NCBI GenBank assembly: GCA_029260475.1
Contig: JAJDDE010000061.1
Span: forward strand, 1 to 57,251
Origin: Phycisphaerales bacterium
GTDB taxonomy: Bacteria > Planctomycetota > Phycisphaerae > Phycisphaerales > UBA1924
Direction of reading: 5' to 3'
Length of the DNA stretch: 57,251 nucleotides
Each line of letters opens with the position of its first letter. The first letter of the stretch is position 1. The notes under the pieces were generated by a model. The model did not search any database, was not told where the DNA came from, and saw only the letters and a program-made list of their open reading frames with translations. Below, piece by piece: positions 15,995 to 43,382 of the stretch. The translations under genes and the position numbers were made by a program.

Positions 15995-18900
15995 CTACGG
16001 ACGCCCCGCGGGGGGTTCCGGTTCACGCTGCGGCGGACGAGCGGAGGCCGGTTCGGGACCTGTAATCGCGTCCAGCAGAGCACGCGTGCTCCGGAGCTGC
16101 TCCGTGCGAAAGACGGGCTTGTTCAGCGTTCCGGTCACGCGCGTCGAAGCGATTTCCTCGCGGAGACCCTCGAGCAGCGGGCTGAGGATAGGCACGTAAC
16201 GGGCCCCGTACGTCGAAAAGGCGAGGTCCACGCCCAGGGTGCCGAGGTCCACATCGCCCGTCCCCGCGATCCGCAGCGAGTCGCTAAACAGCGTCAGACG
16301 GTCCACAATCGCGGTTCCGCCCCCGATAAAGAGATCCGCGTAGGCGAGGTCCACGCGCTCGTTCGCGGGCGCCTGCAGGTTCGAGAGTTCCAGCAGCGGG
16401 ATGATGCCCGGGAGGTCCAGCACACGCCCGCCCTGCACCCGCATCGTCGCACGCCCACGACGCTCGTGGACCCGATCCAGTCGCCCGTAGAGCAAGAACC
16501 CCGCGTCCAGCAGCCCGCGATCCGTCTCGGTGCCCTGCCCCGCGACGTCGAGGTCGCCGAGCACGCCCGCGAACCGGACACTCGCGAGTTCCGCGGACAT
16601 CTCGTAGGTCACGGGCAGGCGCGACGTCCGCACCACCCCACGACCAAAGAGCAACCCGCCGTGAACGTCGCCGCGCAGCGTCGGGATGAGCAGGTCTTTC
16701 CCGGGCCCGTGGCGCACCGCGCGGAGCGTCGCATCGGTCACGCCGATGCGCGCGATCGTGACCTCGTCCATCGCCAGCGTCAGGTCGAAGGTCTCTTCGG
16801 AGGCGGTCACGCGCCCCGTCCCCCGCGCCCCGCCGATCGGCGCACCGATCCGAGCCGAGAGCCCGTCGTAGCGCAGGTCACCGGTCAGCCGGATCGGCGC
16901 ATCGGGCGAGAGCGTGAGCGTCGCGTTGTCCAACGCGAACGCGCCGGCGAGCGTCAGCTCCATGCCGCGGAGCGCCTGTGAAACACGCGGCGGTACCAGC
17001 GAGTACAGAGAATCGTTCAGCGCCCGCGTCTCGAGCGAGAGCCCGAACGACCCGGCGCCCTCCGCGTCGCGACCGCCTTGCAGATGCAGCGTCCAGGTCT
17101 CGGCGTCCAGGGTGAGGTCCGGGATCAGCACCGCGCCCCCGGTGCCCTGCACCGACCCGGTCGCGGCGGTCTCGGTGTTCACACCAGCGCGCAGCAGATC
17201 GACCGCGCTCGGAGTGATAGACCAGTCGCCGTCCGTCTTTCCGCCCGTCATGCGGAGGGTGGCTTCGAGATCGAATATCGCGTCATGGATGCCCAAGGTG
17301 TCCAGGGCGGTCTGGGCACCGCTGAACCTCTTGCGCAGCAGTGTCCGCGCCGTGGCGGAGTCCAGGTGCATCGCGCTCGTGCGCATCTCCAGCACGCCCT
17401 CGCCCTCCCCGATCGGCAGGACGCCGCTGAGAAGCGTGCTGAACCGCTCGCCGTCCGCGATGCCGAGCGCCGCCGAGAACTCGTCGAATCGCGCGAACCC
17501 GGGCGTGACGGTCAGCTCGCCCTGCGGCTGGTGCGCCTCCCATCGCTCGTCGTCGAACCGTATCGACAAATCGGATTTCGGTGCGAGATGCAGCGTGTAG
17601 TTCAGTTGGTTCGACGAGATCGCTTCGAAGAGCAGCGAGGCGTCCACGCGTCCCTCGGGTGCGAGCTTCTCGCGCAGGCGCACGAGCGCGCTGCCGGCGT
17701 CGTCATCGAACCTGGAGGCGAGGTCCTCGAAGGGCGCCGAGAGCTCGATGTCCTCCGCGTCGAAGTCGCCACGAATGCTGGACTCGACGCCGTACAGCGG
17801 GCGTGCGAAGACGACTCGCACCCCGCCCGCGAAGGGCGAGCCACCGATGCGCCCGCTGAGTCCCATCGCCTCGAAGTCGTCGCGCGTGATGCGCAGGTCG
17901 CCGGTGACGCCCTCGAGCCGGAGCGTCTCCCCGCTCGCGGAGGCGACGTTGTCGAGCGTGGCGAGCACCTCGAAGTTGAGCCGTTCGTCCTGAGTGCGCA
18001 TCACGCGGGCCCTGCCGTTGACAACGCCCGTCATGCCCAGGTCGATCAGCGCATCGCGGGGCGATCCCGACCCCGCGAGACCGTTATCGGGCAGCGCGAG
18101 CGCGAGCGTGCGATCGATCGGCATCGAGCGTGCTTCGATCAGCAGGTCCGGCGACGCATCACCGCCCTTAGGGAACGCGACCTCGCCGGTGATCGTCCCG
18201 GTCATGCCGGTGAGCCCCTCGAGTGTGCCCCCACGGATCGTCGCGAGGCGGGGCGTGATCTCGAGGTCGATGTCGCGCCCGATCACCGGGTACCCGAATC
18301 CCTCGGGCACCAGCCCCGCATCGGCGATGTGGACGTCGATCGTCGTCGAGTACCGCGAGTCATCGCCCAGCGGGCGGAAGACACGGATGTCGAGGTCCGC
18401 CGTGCCCGCGAGATCGAAGAGCATCGCGGCGGAGACCGGGTCGGCGCTGGATCGGATGAGCCCCTGCTCGCGCAGCTTTTCGTACGCGCGCCGATCGAAG
18501 AGCACGTCCACGATCGGACGCCTGGACGCCGGCATCGCCTCGCGGAACTCGTCATCGAGCGCGACGTCACGCACCGCGATGTCCACGAGCACCTCCGCAC
18601 CGTCGCCCGGAGGCCTGATGTGCCCCGTGGCGCTCAGCGTGCCGCCCGTCGCGCCCGTGCCCTCGAACTTCACGATGCGGACCTCTTCGTTGTCGAACTC
18701 GAAGCGGGCGCTGATGTCGTGGATCGGGTAGGGGAACTCGTCGTACGCGGCGCGTCCGCCCGCGATGACCATCGAGCCCTTGTAGCGCGGCACCGCGGGG
18801 ACATCCTCAGCGATCGGCTCTCCGCGCGACACGGAGAGCTCCAGAACGACCTCCCCCTCGGGCATCCCGAACCGCTCGTAGATCCGGTCCACCATCTCCG

Positions 18901-20011
18901 GTACCCACGGGAGCCACGTGGGCTGGCTGGCGAGCGTGTAGCCCTCAACGCTCAGAAGCAGGCGGGCGGGCGTGTCCGGCGTGAGGCGATCGGCGTGCAG
19001 CGTGAGCTCGACGGGCAACCCTTCAAAGACGCCCTCGATGTCCGCATCGAATCCGGCCCCCGAGAACCCGAGGGTGCCCGAGACGTCGTCGAGCTCTACG
19101 AGTTGCTTCCCCACAGCTTCGCGCAGGTCCACGGGCACGCGCATCGTGACCACGTCCACGTCCACACCGAACTCCGGCCCGGTCGCCGGCGCGTGACTGA
19201 ATCGCGCCCTGGGTACCCGGCCGCGCAGCTGGAGCTGTTCCCACAGCGGTTGGTACGCGCTGGGCAGCGTGCGCCTCGACCACTCGGAGAGGTCGAGCCC
19301 GACGAGTTCTGCGAAGACCGTGCCCGCTTCGAGGTTGAGAGTCCCAGTGACTTTCGTCGGGTCCGGGGCGGGCCCGCCCGTGCTGTTGAGTTCGGTGAAG
19401 GCGTAGCGGTACACATCGGGGCTGCCAGGCACCTGCCCGCCGCTGCCATCGACCCGCAGCGTGCTGCCACGCAGAGGCGAGTACAGCGTGCTGGTGTGCT
19501 CCCCCGTCTCGATCGTGCCGTCCACGATTGTGAAGCTGGGGATCTGGAGCTCCCCACCGGTGCCCGAGCTCCCCTTGAGCGCGGCAAGGTTGAGCGTGCC
19601 CGTCTCCGAGTTGACGGAGATGCGCACCAGCGGCCTGATGATCTTGAGGTCCTTCACGCGCGGGCTCCCGCCCAGCGTGCTCGACCAATCGACTTCCGCG
19701 ACGAGCTGCGACGCAGAGAGCACACGCCCCGCCGCCTCCTGCACACCCGGCGCATCGATCGTGAGGTCTTCGATGACCACGCGACCGCCCCACGTCATGC
19801 GCACGCTCGACGCGCTCGCATCGCCGCCCACCGCGTCGGAGATCCCCGAGAGCACCACGCCCGAGAGCGCGTCGGTCCGCGTGAGGACCACCATCCCGCC
19901 CCCCGGCACCAGCAGCACCACGAGCGTCACCCACAGGCGCTTGCGCTTCCAGAGGGGCTTCCTGACCCGCTTCGTCTTCGTGCTCTTGGATGATGCTTTG
20001 GTCTTGGGCAC
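15995..20011 (-). CDS. Large AsmA/TamB-like membrane-anchored protein
   Basis: A 1338-residue protein with a very basic N-terminus (many Lys and Arg in residues 3-25), one transmembrane helix (about 27-44) and a long periplasmic beta-rich body. Openings such as VVIEDLTIDAP, LKIIRPLVRISVN and repeated GTLNLEAG-like strands resemble AsmA-like repeats, and the C-terminus (SNLQAPANERVDLAYADLFI, LGVDLAFS) resembles the AsmA/YhdP end. Such proteins bridge the inner and outer membranes and carry phospholipids; this role is inferred from architecture. The gene ends in a Pro-rich tail and lies 59 bases before the LOG gene. It diverges from tRNA-Arg. Confidence 0.65.
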   Translation of the reverse strand: MPKTKASSKSTKTKRVRKPLWKRKRLWVTLVVLLVPGGGMVVLTRTDALSGVVLSGISDAVGGDASASSVRMTWGGRVVIEDLTIDAPGVQEAAGRVLSASQLVAEVDWSSTLGGSPRVKDLKIIRPLVRISVNSETGTLNLAALKGSSGTGGELQIPSFTIVDGTIETGEHTSTLYSPLRGSTLRVDGSGGQVPGSPDVYRYAFTELNSTGGPAPDPTKVTGTLNLEAGTVFAELVGLDLSEWSRRTLPSAYQPLWEQLQLRGRVPRARFSHAPATGPEFGVDVDVVTMRVPVDLREAVGKQLVELDDVSGTLGFSGAGFDADIEGVFEGLPVELTLHADRLTPDTPARLLLSVEGYTLASQPTWLPWVPEMVDRIYERFGMPEGEVVLELSVSRGEPIAEDVPAVPRYKGSMVIAGGRAAYDEFPYPIHDISARFEFDNEEVRIVKFEGTGATGGTLSATGHIRPPGDGAEVLVDIAVRDVALDDEFREAMPASRRPIVDVLFDRRAYEKLREQGLIRSSADPVSAAMLFDLAGTADLDIRVFRPLGDDSRYSTTIDVHIADAGLVPEGFGYPVIGRDIDLEITPRLATIRGGTLEGLTGMTGTITGEVAFPKGGDASPDLLIEARSMPIDRTLALALPDNGLAGSGSPRDALIDLGMTGVVNGRARVMRTQDERLNFEVLATLDNVASASGETLRLEGVTGDLRITRDDFEAMGLSGRIGGSPFAGGVRVVFARPLYGVESSIRGDFDAEDIELSAPFEDLASRFDDDAGSALVRLREKLAPEGRVDASLLFEAISSNQLNYTLHLAPKSDLSIRFDDERWEAHQPQGELTVTPGFARFDEFSAALGIADGERFSTLLSGVLPIGEGEGVLEMRTSAMHLDSATARTLLRKRFSGAQTALDTLGIHDAIFDLEATLRMTGGKTDGDWSITPSAVDLLRAGVNTETAATGSVQGTGGAVLIPDLTLDAETWTLHLQGGRDAEGAGSFGLSLETRALNDSLYSLVPPRVSQALRGMELTLAGAFALDNATLTLSPDAPIRLTGDLRYDGLSARIGAPIGGARGTGRVTASEETFDLTLAMDEVTIARIGVTDATLRAVRHGPGKDLLIPTLRGDVHGGLLFGRGVVRTSRLPVTYEMSAELASVRFAGVLGDLDVAGQGTETDRGLLDAGFLLYGRLDRVHERRGRATMRVQGGRVLDLPGIIPLLELSNLQAPANERVDLAYADLFIGGGTAIVDRLTLFSDSLRIAGTGDVDLGTLGVDLAFSTYGARYVPILSPLLEGLREEIASTRVTGTLNKPVFRTEQLRSTRALLDAITGPEPASARPPQREPEPPAGRP

Positions 20012-20054
20012 GTGTGTCGGTGTTCCGTCGCGAATCGGAGTGGCGTGTCGGTCC

Positions 20055-20060
20055 TATACT
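20055..20060 (+). promoter_or_regulatory. Probable -10 element for tRNA-Arg
   Basis: TATACT lies 32 bases before the tRNA 5' end and matches five of six sigma70 -10 positions. I see no good -35 hexamer at 16-18 bases, so the call rests on the -10 only. Confidence 0.35.
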
Positions 20061-20066
20061 CGGCAC

Positions 20067-20087
20067 GTTCGGGCACGGTGCCCGAAC
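20067..20087 (+). other. Perfect hairpin in the tRNA-Arg leader
   Basis: GTTCGGGCA and TGCCCGAAC form a 9-bp perfect stem with a three-base loop, ending five bases before the mature tRNA. It has no T-run on either strand, so it is not a classical terminator. If transcription starts a few bases after the -10 at 20055-20060, this would be nearly the whole 5' leader. Confidence 0.6.
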
Positions 20088-20091
20088 ACAA

Positions 20092-20473
20092 GCGCTCGTA
20101 GCTCAGCAGGATAGAGCAGCGGTTTCCTGAGGCGGTGGTTGCCTCCAACCACGAATTGGGGCCCGGCGTGGGAACGCGTCGAGGCGAACCGGGTGAACTC
20201 GGGGAAACCCGCCAGGCGCGACGGCGTCAACGGGCAATCCCGAGCCGAGCCGTCGGCGGGGCCGATGTCCATTTACGGGCGTCTGTGCCGGCGGAAGGTG
20301 TAGAGACCAGCGGGTGAGCTCCCCAGCGATACCCCCGCGACAGCGCCCGGCGTCCCATCCTCATCCCCTTTTCGGGGAAGAGAAGGACGAAGAGATGGTC
20401 CGGTCCATCGGGATGGCAAACCGATGGGAAGAGCCGAAATCGCAGGTCGGAGGTTCGAGTCCTCCCGGGCGCG
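20092..20473 (+). tRNA. tRNA-Arg(CCU), interrupted by a group I intron
   Basis: Two exons, 20092-20128 and 20437-20473, make a 74-nt cloverleaf. The acceptor GCGCTCG pairs with CGGGCGC (one G-U pair). The D stem is GCTC/GAGC and the anticodon stem GCGGT/ATCGC. The anticodon loop TT-CCT-AA has the CCU anticodon at 20126-20128. The T arm is GGAGG-TTCGAGT-CCTCC and the discriminator base is G. CCA is not encoded. The interruption lies exactly after anticodon base 36, the insertion site I recall for the Agrobacterium tRNA-Arg(CCU) intron. This tRNA reads the AGG codon and must be spliced to function. Confidence 0.93.
20129..20436 (+). ncRNA. Group I self-splicing intron in the tRNA-Arg anticodon loop
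   Basis: A 308-nt insert with a complete group I core. The P7 region AAGGTGTAGAGACCA is nearly identical to that of the Azoarcus tRNA-Ile intron. Pairings by eye: P1 exon TCCT plus intron GA with TTGGGG (20156-20161), giving U-G at the splice site; P2 GGCGTG/CGCGTC capped by a GGAA tetraloop; P3 CCGGGT (20189-20194)/GCCCGG (20345-20350); P4 CTCGGG (20198-20203)/CCCGAG (20239-20244); P5 CCCG/CGGG; P7 AGACCA (20304-20309)/TGGTCC (20396-20401); P8 CGTCC/GGACG; P9 CCATCGG/CCGATGG. The last base is G (omega-G, 20436). No homing-endonuclease ORF fits inside. Confidence 0.93.
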
Positions 20474-20749
20474 CTTGATGTCTTGAATTCGGGGCCCAAA
20501 CCCGGTGCAACGCCCGACTTCGGGCGGTGTAGACTCAATCTGGAGGCCGAGGATTCCCCGCAAATCGGTCCGCGTGATGGTTCGGTGGATGTTTGTACAT
20601 CTTCCGCATCAGAACGCTGATCGTGGCACCGTTGGTGGTGGCGGGTGGGGGGTTTCAGGCCGATACCAAGTCCGCTGTGCCCGCGTCATGCAACGCGGGC
20701 GGGTGTTCTCGAACCTTCTGCATGACTCGACCCGAGGAGTGGTGACACG
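20474..20749. other. Spacer between tRNA-Arg and the DUF1573 gene
   Basis: About 276 bases without a supported gene. It contains one perfect 7-bp hairpin (CGCCCGA / TCGGGCG, 20511-20526) without a T-run, 38 bases after the tRNA, which may help end or process the tRNA transcript. A GAGGAG box at 20734-20739 serves the next gene. Confidence 0.5.
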
Positions 20750-22144
20750 ATGATCGACCTGAAGACGAAGCGCAACCGACTCGTTGCATGGACCGCCGCA
20801 GGATGCGCCCTGCTGGCGCTGGTGGGCTGTGACCAAGCCGCCAGCACCCCCCAAGCCCAGACCACGCCGGCCGCGAACACCGTGACCGGGAATACGGCTG
20901 ACACCGACGCCAAGACCACCCCGGTCGAAACTCCCGCCCCGCAGCAGGCGGCCCCCAAGCCCCCGCAGGACAACCGCACGCAGGCCGACCTCCGCGTGGA
21001 GCGTGAGCGTGAGTTGCTCGAGAACCAGGGCGTAGTCTTCTCGGATGATCCCGACGCCCAGCCCCGACTGATGATCCGTGGCGACACCACACAGCACGCC
21101 GGCGTCATCTACTCCAATAAGCAGCCAGTTCAGTTCGTGTTCAACCTCTACAACGGCGGCACCAGCGACCTGATCATCACCCGCATCTCCTCCAGTTGCG
21201 GCTGCACGGTCCCGAAAAAGGATGGCCTCGTTGACGTCGCCTTCCCTCCCGGCGCCGACCTCCCGCCTCTTGAGATCGCCTACACCCCCAAGAGCACCGG
21301 TGACTCGAGCAAGGCCGTGACCCTGTTCACCAACGATCCCGTGAGCCCCATCGTGCGTCTGAAGATCGGCGCGAACATGGCGGCACTCGCCGCGGCCAGC
21401 CCGGCCGACATCCGCCCCGGAGAACTCCGCGCCGGGAGGACCCACATCGTGAAGTTTGACGTGCTCGCCTTCGACGCGAACGCGAAGATCACGAGTATCA
21501 CCGCGCCCAAGATGGAAGGCATGCTCGACTTCAACGTGCTCGAGCCCGTCGAGATCTCCGACGAGAAGTCGGCCTACAAGGTCCGCATCCCCGTCGAGAT
21601 CGTCTTCCCCAAGGAACTCGGCGACCGCAAAATCTCCAACACGATCAACATCATCGTCCTCGCAACGCCCCCGGGCGAGAGCGAAGCCGTGGAGTCGCCC
21701 CTTGCAGCGCGACTCGTCGCGAACCTCGCGGGTGACCTCCGGTTCACCCGCCCCTTCGCCCGAGTCTCGTACTCCGAGCCCGGAGAGACGTACTCCTTCT
21801 CCTCGAACCTGACCTCGGTCTCGGGGAGCGACTTCGAGATCACCCGCGTCGTCGCACACGACCGGCGCTCGCAGGCGGAGATCGAACTCACGGTCTCCTA
21901 CGAACGGGTCGAAGAGGCCCGCGTCCCGACGTGGCGCATGAGCTTCGATGGCCAGGCCCCACAGACCGGTTCTGTGACCGGTGAGGTCACCGTGTACACG
22001 AGCCTCGTCGATGAGCCCCCCGCGAAGATGACCTTCTCCGGCATGCTCACACCCAAGCGCACCGGCCAGCCGGCCAAGCCGGCCAACGGTGCCGCTCCGT
22101 CTCCGGGCATGAACGATCGCGTACGCCGCAGCTCGCCCAGTTAA
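20750..22144 (+). CDS. DUF1573-domain lipoprotein
   Basis: A 464-residue predicted lipoprotein (LVGC, Cys27) followed by a low-complexity Ala/Thr/Pro linker. The DUF1573 domain is marked by QFVFNLYNGGTSDLIITRI, SSSCGCTVPKKD and LEIAYTPKSTGDSSKAVTLF, an immunoglobulin-like beta fold with the conserved CGCT motif. Proteins with this domain are common in Planctomycetes and Bacteroidetes and are exported; their role is not established. ATG 20750 has a GAGGAG box about 10 bases upstream, and a terminator follows. Confidence 0.82.
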   Translation: MIDLKTKRNRLVAWTAAGCALLALVGCDQAASTPQAQTTPAANTVTGNTADTDAKTTPVETPAPQQAAPKPPQDNRTQADLRVERERELLENQGVVFSDDPDAQPRLMIRGDTTQHAGVIYSNKQPVQFVFNLYNGGTSDLIITRISSSCGCTVPKKDGLVDVAFPPGADLPPLEIAYTPKSTGDSSKAVTLFTNDPVSPIVRLKIGANMAALAAASPADIRPGELRAGRTHIVKFDVLAFDANAKITSITAPKMEGMLDFNVLEPVEISDEKSAYKVRIPVEIVFPKELGDRKISNTINIIVLATPPGESEAVESPLAARLVANLAGDLRFTRPFARVSYSEPGETYSFSSNLTSVSGSDFEITRVVAHDRRSQAEIELTVSYERVEEARVPTWRMSFDGQAPQTGSVTGEVTVYTSLVDEPPAKMTFSGMLTPKRTGQPAKPANGAAPSPGMNDRVRRSSPS

Positions 22145-41218: not shown

Positions 41219-41312
41219 AATGGGGACAGGCTACCCGTGGGCGAGGTGAGGGGCGTCGCTTGCCCGGGGTTGAGAACCCCGTTCGGAGCGCGCGAATCTG
41301 GTCGGGTGGCGC

Positions 41313-41341
41313 TTGTTCAGCGCGAGAATAGGGACTATCTT
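41313..41341 (+). promoter_or_regulatory. Candidate promoter for tRNA-Thr and tuf
   Basis: TTGTTC and TATCTT separated by 17 bases, 68 bases before tRNA-Thr, in the spacer that divides this cluster from the divergent gmhB gene. It matches four of six consensus bases at each hexamer. Confidence 0.4.
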
Positions 41342-41409
41342 TGCCGACTCGCCAGACCGGGCGTAGCGCGGTCGGTGTCCTCTGGATCACACCGGAGGGC
41401 GTGGCGGAG

Positions 41410-41481
41410 GCCACCGTAGCTCAGTGGTAGAGCACACCCTTGGTAAGGGTGAGGTCAAGGGTTCAAGTCCCTTCGGTGGCT
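41410..41481 (+). tRNA. tRNA-Thr(GGU)
   Basis: Acceptor GCCACCG/CGGTGGC, D stem GCTC/GAGC, anticodon stem CACCC/GGGTG with loop TTGGTAA (anticodon GGT at 41442-41444), T arm AAGGG-TTCAAGT-CCCTT, discriminator T. CCA is not encoded. tRNA-Thr upstream of tuf is a common bacterial arrangement. Confidence 0.95.
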
Positions 41482-41728
41482 TATGACGATCGATCGCCGT
41501 CCCTCGGGCGGTCGCGTGGGCCGATTTGCGGCCTACCGTTGTCTTCTGCGTTACTCGGCCCGTGGTGGGTCGGACGTGGTACGGGTCGTGTTCCCATGCG
41601 AGCGGGAGCAAGGCTTGAGGGTCCCCAGTGCCGACGGAGGTCGTTGGCGGGGCGTTGGATCCAGCTCGCAGTGACGGGCCGCCATGCGGTCTCGTCCGTG
41701 AACACACACACGGTGGAGGCTACACCGA
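41482..41728 (+). other. Spacer between tRNA-Thr and tuf
   Basis: 247 bases with no supported gene or T-tailed hairpin. A GGTGGAGG ribosome binding site lies at 41712-41719. It probably forms the 5' untranslated region of tuf within a transcript started before tRNA-Thr. Confidence 0.5.
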
Positions 41729-42931
<1,203 letters not shown>

Positions 42932-42936
42932 TCGAC

Positions 42937-42992
42937 CGGCCTCTGTGAGGCCGCGAATCGCACTATCCGTGGGGCACGTGAAAGCGTGCCCC
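42937..42992 (+). other. Two hairpins between tuf and rpmG
   Basis: A 7-bp stem (CGGCCTC/GAGGCCG, three-base loop, 42937-42953) and an 8-bp stem (GGGGCACG/CGTGCCCC, six-base loop, 42971-42992). Neither is followed by a T-run, so they look like partial terminators, processing sites or mRNA-stabilising elements that lower expression of downstream genes relative to tuf. Confidence 0.55.
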
Positions 42993-43083
42993 GCGTCTTC
43001 CCACAACGATCCCATCCCGGCGGTTGCCCGGGCCTCGCGCGGTGGGCGTGAGCGCCCCCCGCCCAACAGACTCGGTGAGCATC

Positions 43084-43266
43084 ATGGCCAAGAAAAAGGG
43101 CGACGCCCGCGAATACGTCTGGTTGCAGTGCTCCGAGACGGGTGACCTGAACTACCGCACGCAGGTCAACGTCAAGGGCGGTCTGCCCGAGAAGCTCAAG
43201 GATGGGCTCAACAAGTACTGCCCGCGTCTGCGCAAGCACACGCTGCACAAGATCAAACGCAAGTGA
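43084..43266 (+). CDS. rpmG: 50S ribosomal protein L33
   Basis: A 60-residue L33 protein: [44 protein letters not shown]. Only one Cys of each CxxC pair is left (CSET and CPRL), so this is a zinc-free form. Position between tuf and tRNA-Trp/secE is typical. ATG 43084 is decided by homology; the earlier open frame is unrelated. Confidence 0.92.
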
Positions 43267-43309
43267 CCGCGCTCGTCGTGCCTCTCGAGGTACGGCGGGA
43301 TCGCGAGGG

Positions 43310-43382
43310 ACGCCAATAGCTCAATTGGTAGAGCAGCTGATTCCAAATCAGCAGGTTGGGAGTTCGAGTCTCTCTTGGCGTG
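43310..43382 (+). tRNA. tRNA-Trp(CCA)
   Basis: Acceptor ACGCCAA/TTGGCGT, D stem GCTC/GAGC, anticodon stem GCTGA/TCAGC with loop TTCCAAA (anticodon CCA), T arm GGGAG-TTCGAGT-CTCTC with one G-T pair, discriminator G. The 3' CCA is not encoded. Located just before secE, as in many bacteria. Confidence 0.95.

Follow-up and report, generated by a model that had tools for sequence, protein, structure and literature searches.

A group I intron in the tRNA-Arg(CCU) gene of Phycisphaerales and an integrase element that carries such a split gene in a relative

The split tRNA-Arg(CCU) gene

The window analysed here is a stretch of 57,251 nt from a Phycisphaerales bacterium (contig JAJDDE010000061.1), and it contains, on the forward strand, a tRNA-Arg(CCU) gene in two pieces. 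The 5' exon (20092-20128) supplies the 5' strand of the acceptor stem, the D arm, the 5' strand of the anticodon stem, U33 and the anticodon CCU (positions 34-36), and the 3' exon (20437-20473) runs from A37 to the 3' strand of the acceptor stem. Between them lies a 308-nt group I intron (20129-20436), delimited by ARAGORN, blastn, alignment, an ORF listing and a covariance model. No homing-endonuclease gene was found in the window intron, whose longest internal sense ORF is 60 aa. When introns were allowed, ARAGORN placed a tRNA-Arg(cct) at 20092-20474, interrupted between ...ttcct and aaatc... by exactly 308 intron bases, and a complete cloverleaf with a CCU anticodon forms once this insert is removed; run without the intron option, the same program reported no tRNA at 20092-20473. 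The intron boundaries, the insertion after base 36 and the length of 308 bases given in a preliminary description of the locus were thus exact to the base.

Locus comparison and Pfam searches identified the neighbours of the split gene as an AsmA/YhdP-like protein upstream (15995-20011, reverse strand; a weak Pfam match, below the cut-off) and a DUF1573 protein downstream (20750-22144, forward strand). An archaeal-type bulge-helix-bulge (BHB) tRNA intron was set aside because of the group I core. Further intron-containing tRNAs called by ARAGORN, at 41229-41482 of the window and in the relative G009, were without an intron-model match and were rejected as spurious. At 41409-43382 of the window, tRNA-Thr(GGT), an EF-Tu-like ORF and tRNA-Trp follow one another in a conserved housekeeping arrangement, around which no signs of mobile elements were seen.

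When the spliced tRNA-Arg(CCU) sequence was searched against its own genome (3.43 Mb, 97% complete), it matched its two halves and otherwise only other tRNAs (Met-CAT, Arg-TCT, Arg-CCG, Thr, Lys and Asn). A second intact tRNA-Arg(CCU) gene elsewhere, which the preliminary description had named as grounds for regarding this copy as dispensable, was not found in this 97% complete assembly, and the split gene appears to be the only tRNA-Arg(CCU) gene of the genome. A tRNA-Arg(UCU) gene is present, and AGG could otherwise be read by that tRNA alone, through wobble.

Fold, splicing and detection of the intron

In the predicted fold of the insert, all of it on the forward strand, P1 pairs the exon sequence UCCU (20125-20128) with the internal guide GGGG (20158-20161), as supported by the sequence and the family alignment. 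P1 has a U36.G pair at the 5' splice site and a loop of 29 nt, which exceeds that of most relatives, and its guide is GGGG or GGGA throughout the aligned members of the family. P2 (20162-20184), recognised by loop comparison, is capped by the GNRA tetraloop GGAA (20171-20174); L2 is GNRA in 21 of 22 relatives. Covariation analysis yielded P3 (20189-20195 with 20344-20350), P4 (20198-20204 with 20238-20244) and P5 (20208-20210 with 20232-20234) together with J4/5 and J5/4, and P8 (20352-20355 with 20385-20388). P6 (20250-20257 with 20287-20294) shows two-sided changes in six of its eight pairs, and P7, the guanosine-binding helix (20305-20309 with 20396-20400), which is pseudoknotted with P3, is paired in 99.1% of cells. 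An extra hairpin between P7 and P3 consists of P7.1 (20310-20314 with 20334-20338) and P7.1a (20318-20320 with 20325-20327), separated by a conserved UGA / RAUA internal loop; in an alignment of 99 introns drawn from several phyla, which was fitted to the model and so favours it, P7.1 is 99.8% paired with two-sided changes in all five pairs. Loop comparison also placed P9 (20405-20411 with 20421-20427), where the window has an L9 of 9 nt and the relatives a GNRA loop or a similar one of five bases, so that one of the usual tertiary contacts may have been lost or replaced. P7.2, a second variable hairpin present in most relatives, is absent from the window. The intron ends in ...GAGCCG with a terminal omega-G at 20436, a position fixed by the split tRNA, and the final base is G in 22 of 22 aligned cases, a count for which the extraction pattern required a G and the tRNA set the 3' exon boundary. 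The core motif and the omega-G were likewise correctly recognised in the preliminary description.

Across 22 sequences, 92.2% of cells over the 53 core pairs are paired and two-sided changes occur in 21 pairs, where shuffling gave a mean of 12.9; none of 500 shuffles scored as high on either measure, and sliding the partners by 1-3 columns lowered pairing from 92% to 33-48%. With P7 left out, core pairing over 99 introns is 94.4%. Within the family P3, P4 and P7 hardly vary, so what backs them at that level is identity and not covariation.

The insert has the P3-P8 / P4-P6 core with the P7-P3 pseudoknot, the P1 helix with its U.G pair and the omega-G of a group I intron. As in subgroup IC3, P5 is small and without P5abc, being a short hairpin in every aligned member. 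An IC3 intron is not known to have an extra helix between P7 and P3, whereas here P7.1 is present and covaries; the predicted fold is IC3-like with an added P7.1, and we do not file it as IC3. With the Azoarcus intron, as that intron is described, it has in common an IC3-like P4-P6/J6-7/P7 core and a short P1 helped by the anticodon stem. Like the bacterial IC3 introns of Azoarcus tRNA-Ile, Agrobacterium tRNA-Arg(CCU) and cyanobacterial tRNA-Leu (reviewed in PMC3984707), the window intron is small, lacks a homing-endonuclease gene and is inserted in the anticodon loop. It differs from them in its planctomycete host, in falling below RF00028 detection and in belonging to a family with P7.1 between P7 and P3 and, mostly, P7.2 as well.

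The 308-nt intron would very probably remove itself in the cell. In the primary transcript, the exon UCCU would pair with the guide GGGG to form P1, placing U36.G at the 5' splice site, and a guanosine bound in P7 would attack after U36. The freed U36 would then attack after the omega-G, so that U36 is ligated to A37 and the anticodon loop is whole again, while the exons would be kept together by their own anticodon stem.

An Rfam cmscan of 19900-20700 returned nothing even at E <= 1. The preliminary description had treated a missing RF00028 hit as evidence against the intron, and the window indeed gives none; as a refutation this is misleading, given that cousins of the intron score 61-80 bits. 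The RF00028 gathering score of 50 bits is a detection threshold and not a structural criterion. One family member (L007) stays under it at 31.9 bits, while tRNA-Asn introns of Phycisphaerae (79.6 bits), Rhodopila (77.6), a Methylomirabilota bin (66.6) and two Patescibacteria (61.5 and 62.8) pass. Judged by these scores, the tRNA-Arg introns are a subclade that has drifted under the cut-off; in the window, the altered L9 and the absent P7.2 may account for the miss. We built two covariance models, R1 from the intron family and R2 from 21 relatives without the window. R2 matches 20188-20401 at 158.6 bits (E 2.9e-42), a result that is not circular since the window was left out of the model. Independent blastn searches, this model and the core covariation all point, as had been proposed, to a group I intron that splits the anticodon loop of the tRNA-Arg(CCU) gene.

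Tools for tRNA genes have their own limits. In intron mode, ARAGORN often misnames the anticodons of the relatives (e.g. as Gly, Gln, Pro or Ser) by a shift of the splice point, and insertion sites were read from the sequence. tRNAscan-SE is stated to be unable to detect tRNA genes split by group I introns (PMC8450103). The clade escapes both Rfam and ordinary tRNA finders, and its genomes consequently seem to be without tRNA-Arg(CCU).

The Rfam miss, the altered L9, the missing P7.2 and the presence of tRNA-Arg(UCU) could also be taken to mean that a decayed intron lies in a tRNA pseudogene and that AGG is read by tRNA-Arg(UCU) alone. We consider this highly improbable, since all core helices and both exons are intact, a full cloverleaf results from removal of the insert, the gene is single-copy, and the guide and splice sites are conserved across the family.

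Relatives and inheritance of the intron

With the intron as query, blastn over 163 genomes from its family matched 30 at E <= 0.001 (best E 1.4e-45). Full introns with readable exons number 22, the window counted; they are 288-349 nt long and end in G, and all 22 are inserted in tRNA-Arg(CCU) directly after ...GGTTTCCT and before AAAYCG. R1 found the intron at the same position in 23 of the 163 family genomes, with E below 1e-17, and in one further genome (G238) from another family of the order. The intron-bearing relatives are classified as Phycisphaeraceae, Phycisphaerales or Phycisphaerae. A class-wide search with R1 added G469 and G561 from a third family, where the host gene is tRNA-Asn(GUU). 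By a pattern for an intact anticodon arm, none of the 23 intron-bearing genomes has an intact CCT gene, which many intron-free relatives do have. Close to an empty site is an intact tRNA in one of these, G005, identical to the spliced exons of the window at 73 of 74 bases and situated at a different locus.

Scanning 84,980 genomes once for the core combined with the P7.1 motif gave 105 stretches, of which 80 were examined, all of them matching R1 at 80 bits or more. Most are from Patescibacteria; the others include Phycisphaerales, Rhodopila, one Methylomirabilota and a distant Planctomycetota bin (L173), in which the intron is again in tRNA-Arg(CCU). The host genes of the scanned introns are mostly tRNA-Phe(GAA), with others in tRNA-Asn(GUU). 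The closest relatives recovered bear P7.1 and belong to Planctomycetota, Patescibacteria and Rhodopila, in a scan that used the P7.1 motif and is biased accordingly. The plasmid and phage collections searched gave nothing useful, and an Acetobacter match was rejected as an intron relative because its tRNA is intact. A weaker second intron-model match (42 bits; L183:2193-2418) on the same contig as a strong one is possibly a divergent or decayed copy.

Introns in tRNA genes of Patescibacteria (CPR) have been mentioned in passing (PMC8172020). They have the same core and the same P7.1 with the UGA/RAUA loop as the window intron, and score 80-121 bits with the family model. Unlike the window intron, they have a compact P7.1 and, in those tested, are RF00028 positive; they lie mostly in tRNA-Phe(GAA), apparently after U33 (by ARAGORN placement and a reading with U before the intron and G last), or in tRNA-Asn(GUU), and some contain an HNH-like ORF. 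Such ORFs, of about 100 aa and with a CxxC...HH...CxxCH pattern, were found only in tRNA-Asn introns, those of Phycisphaerae and of several Patescibacteria; the tRNA-Asn(GUU) introns concerned are L214 (G469), L215 (G561), L113, L153, L160 and L179. Three of the ORFs score 20.2, 17.2 and 16.6 with Pfam HNH, against a cut-off of 21.4, and identity between Phycisphaerae and Patescibacteria is 54-61%. That these ORFs are common to the phyla suggests that the intron lineage has moved across phyla. The introns of the family, that of the window included, belong to a P7.1-bearing lineage which Patescibacteria share.

In an intron tree of short sequences, with rows chosen by motif, the 24 tRNA-Arg introns from Phycisphaerales cluster together (SH-aLRT 90). 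Mapped onto an RpoB tree of 29 genomes, the presence of the intron needs at least six changes (gains or losses) on well-supported branches. In one genome (G155:C201:991-5159, near L245), rpoB is matched as four fragments spread over more than one open frame, through a frameshift, an insertion or an assembly error. An AsmA/YhdP-like gene adjoins the split tRNA in nine lineages, the window counted, and in five of these nine the DUF1573 gene does so too; the orthologous locus indicates vertical descent. G009, G156 and G068 share identical unusual exons and introns that are 85-93% identical, in unrelated flanks, although the RpoB tree sets G009 far from the other two, and in the genus-mates of G009 (G007 and G008) the tRNA-Arg(CCU) gene is intact and differs from it. 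G156 and G068 showed no split native gene within the 20 kb surrounding their intron gene. On these comparisons inheritance is mixed: nine lineages keep the split gene at an orthologous position, and at least once the complete split gene was later transferred within the family. The preliminary description had offered an old horizontal transfer as one explanation, which is too simple: the introns form a single group, nine lineages share the locus, and transfer enters as the later movement of a whole split gene.

The intron may simply be a neutral relic, persisting because precise loss is rare and bringing no benefit to host or mobile elements. This account concerns retention and not the identity of the intron, and we think it slightly more likely than not: the window intron has no endonuclease gene, its locus is vertically inherited in nine lineages, and its presence is patchy on the RpoB tree. 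The replacement of an intact native gene by a split one through an element in G009, described below, exceeds passive persistence and argues against it.

Integrases at tRNA-Arg(CCU)

In G009, the native tRNA-Arg(CCU) gene is cut in the anticodon arm and its halves lie 15 kb apart. The 5' half continues a flank common to G007, and the 3' half continues the other shared flank at 94-96% identity. Comparison of flanks and junctions defined a 15-kb integrative element (L276, G009:C2:408000-422000, and L278:13462-13502), both junctions of which contain the 12-bp core GTTTCCTAAACG, a sequence of the anticodon loop. The element encodes a tyrosine integrase (Arm-DNA-bind_3 and Phage_integrase), followed 18 bp on by an intron-split tRNA-Arg(CCU), and its further cargo comprises a GHKL ATPase, a DNA methylase, a Prim-Pol protein and an HTH_17 protein. 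It appears to destroy the tRNA gene of its host and to supply an intron-bearing replacement.

Two intron-free genomes also have integrases at this gene, recognised by similarity and by eye. In G039, displaced 3' halves and tyrosine integrases border an intact tRNA-Arg(CCU), and in G065 (L319, G065:C1) an extra, sequence-divergent tRNA-Arg(CCU) adjoins an integrase ORF. tRNA-Arg(CCU) therefore looks like a recurrent integrase target in the family. The two displaced 3' halves of G039 (L316 and L317, G039:C50), one with TTTCCAAAA, lie beside the intact tRNA-Arg(CCT) and record repeated integrations at one tRNA. A second, sequence-divergent tRNA-Arg(CCU) in G004 (L321, G004:C67:138-214) encodes CCA; this copy and the extra one of G065 look like mobile-element cargo.

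Our reading of the window is a catalytic group I intron without a homing-endonuclease gene, between positions 36 and 37 of what appears to be the sole tRNA-Arg(CCU) gene, which would be spliced in the cell; it would be old in the family, passed on with its locus in several lineages, lost from or lacking in most, and moved at least once with the whole tRNA gene on an integrase element. We hold this to be very probable, given the anatomy, conservation and covariation of the intron, its exact exon boundaries, its single copy in the assembly and the G009 element.

Compatible with that self-splicing reading, and again about retention, is the more doubtful idea that the intron shields the tRNA gene. 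Integrases would use the anticodon loop as attB, and an intron after U36 would split the core; elements with a split replacement could wreck the native gene while their own copy stays unexposed, and hosts with a split gene would be closed to them. The intron site divides the 12-bp att core 7/5, and the best core match has 4 mismatches in the split gene, compared with 1-2 once spliced; a gene interrupted in this way would be expected to withstand such integrases. The G009 element, with GTTTCCTAAACG at both ends and a split tRNA beside its integrase, and the linked integrases and displaced 3' halves of intron-free G039 and G065 favour such a shield, as does the archaeal precedent (the hypothesis of Randau and Soll, and PMC3293823). 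Against it, a single clear element with a split tRNA was found, most of the family is without the intron, and neither similarity to the G009 integrase nor inspection by eye revealed an integrase beside the gene of the window or those of G156, G068, G070 and G074. Extended to a site immunity, in which group I introns of the anticodon loop cut the att cores of tyrosine integrases, elements exploit this through an intron-split replacement tRNA that is proof against their own integrase, and the window holds a chromosomal, vertically kept shielded gene, the proposal is in our view rather unlikely.

Tycheposons, too, have a tyrosine integrase that acts at a tRNA gene, and compensation for the loss comes from the element itself. 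The same holds for the tRNA-gene integrative elements catalogued by Islander (PMC4383910); unlike either, the G009 element compensates with a complete intron-split tRNA gene and does not restore the target's own sequence. The idea that tRNA introns block integration was proposed for archaea (PMC3293823), where Caldiarchaeum likewise has an intron-bearing tRNA beside a tRNA fragment left by a site-specific element. G009 differs in its bacterial group I intron, of a self-splicing class, its att core in the anticodon loop and the complete foreign tRNA on the element.

Group I introns in tRNA genes are already known. A 2014 review of those in bacteria (PMC3984707) leaves planctomycetes unmentioned, and in the open-licence literature we found no paper on group I introns in planctomycete tRNA genes; the new host lineage considered in the preliminary description stands, with a Phycisphaerales-type host. 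In the open-access literature searched there appears to be no earlier report of the planctomycete host lineage, of the variant invisible to Rfam or of the connection with an integrase. The finding adds a phylum, apparently unreported as a host, to those with group I introns in tRNA genes. Of wider reach is the connection, in the relative G009, between split tRNA genes and an anticodon-loop integrase, which offers a concrete bacterial case in which the long-standing proposal that tRNA introns guard against integrating elements can be put to the test.
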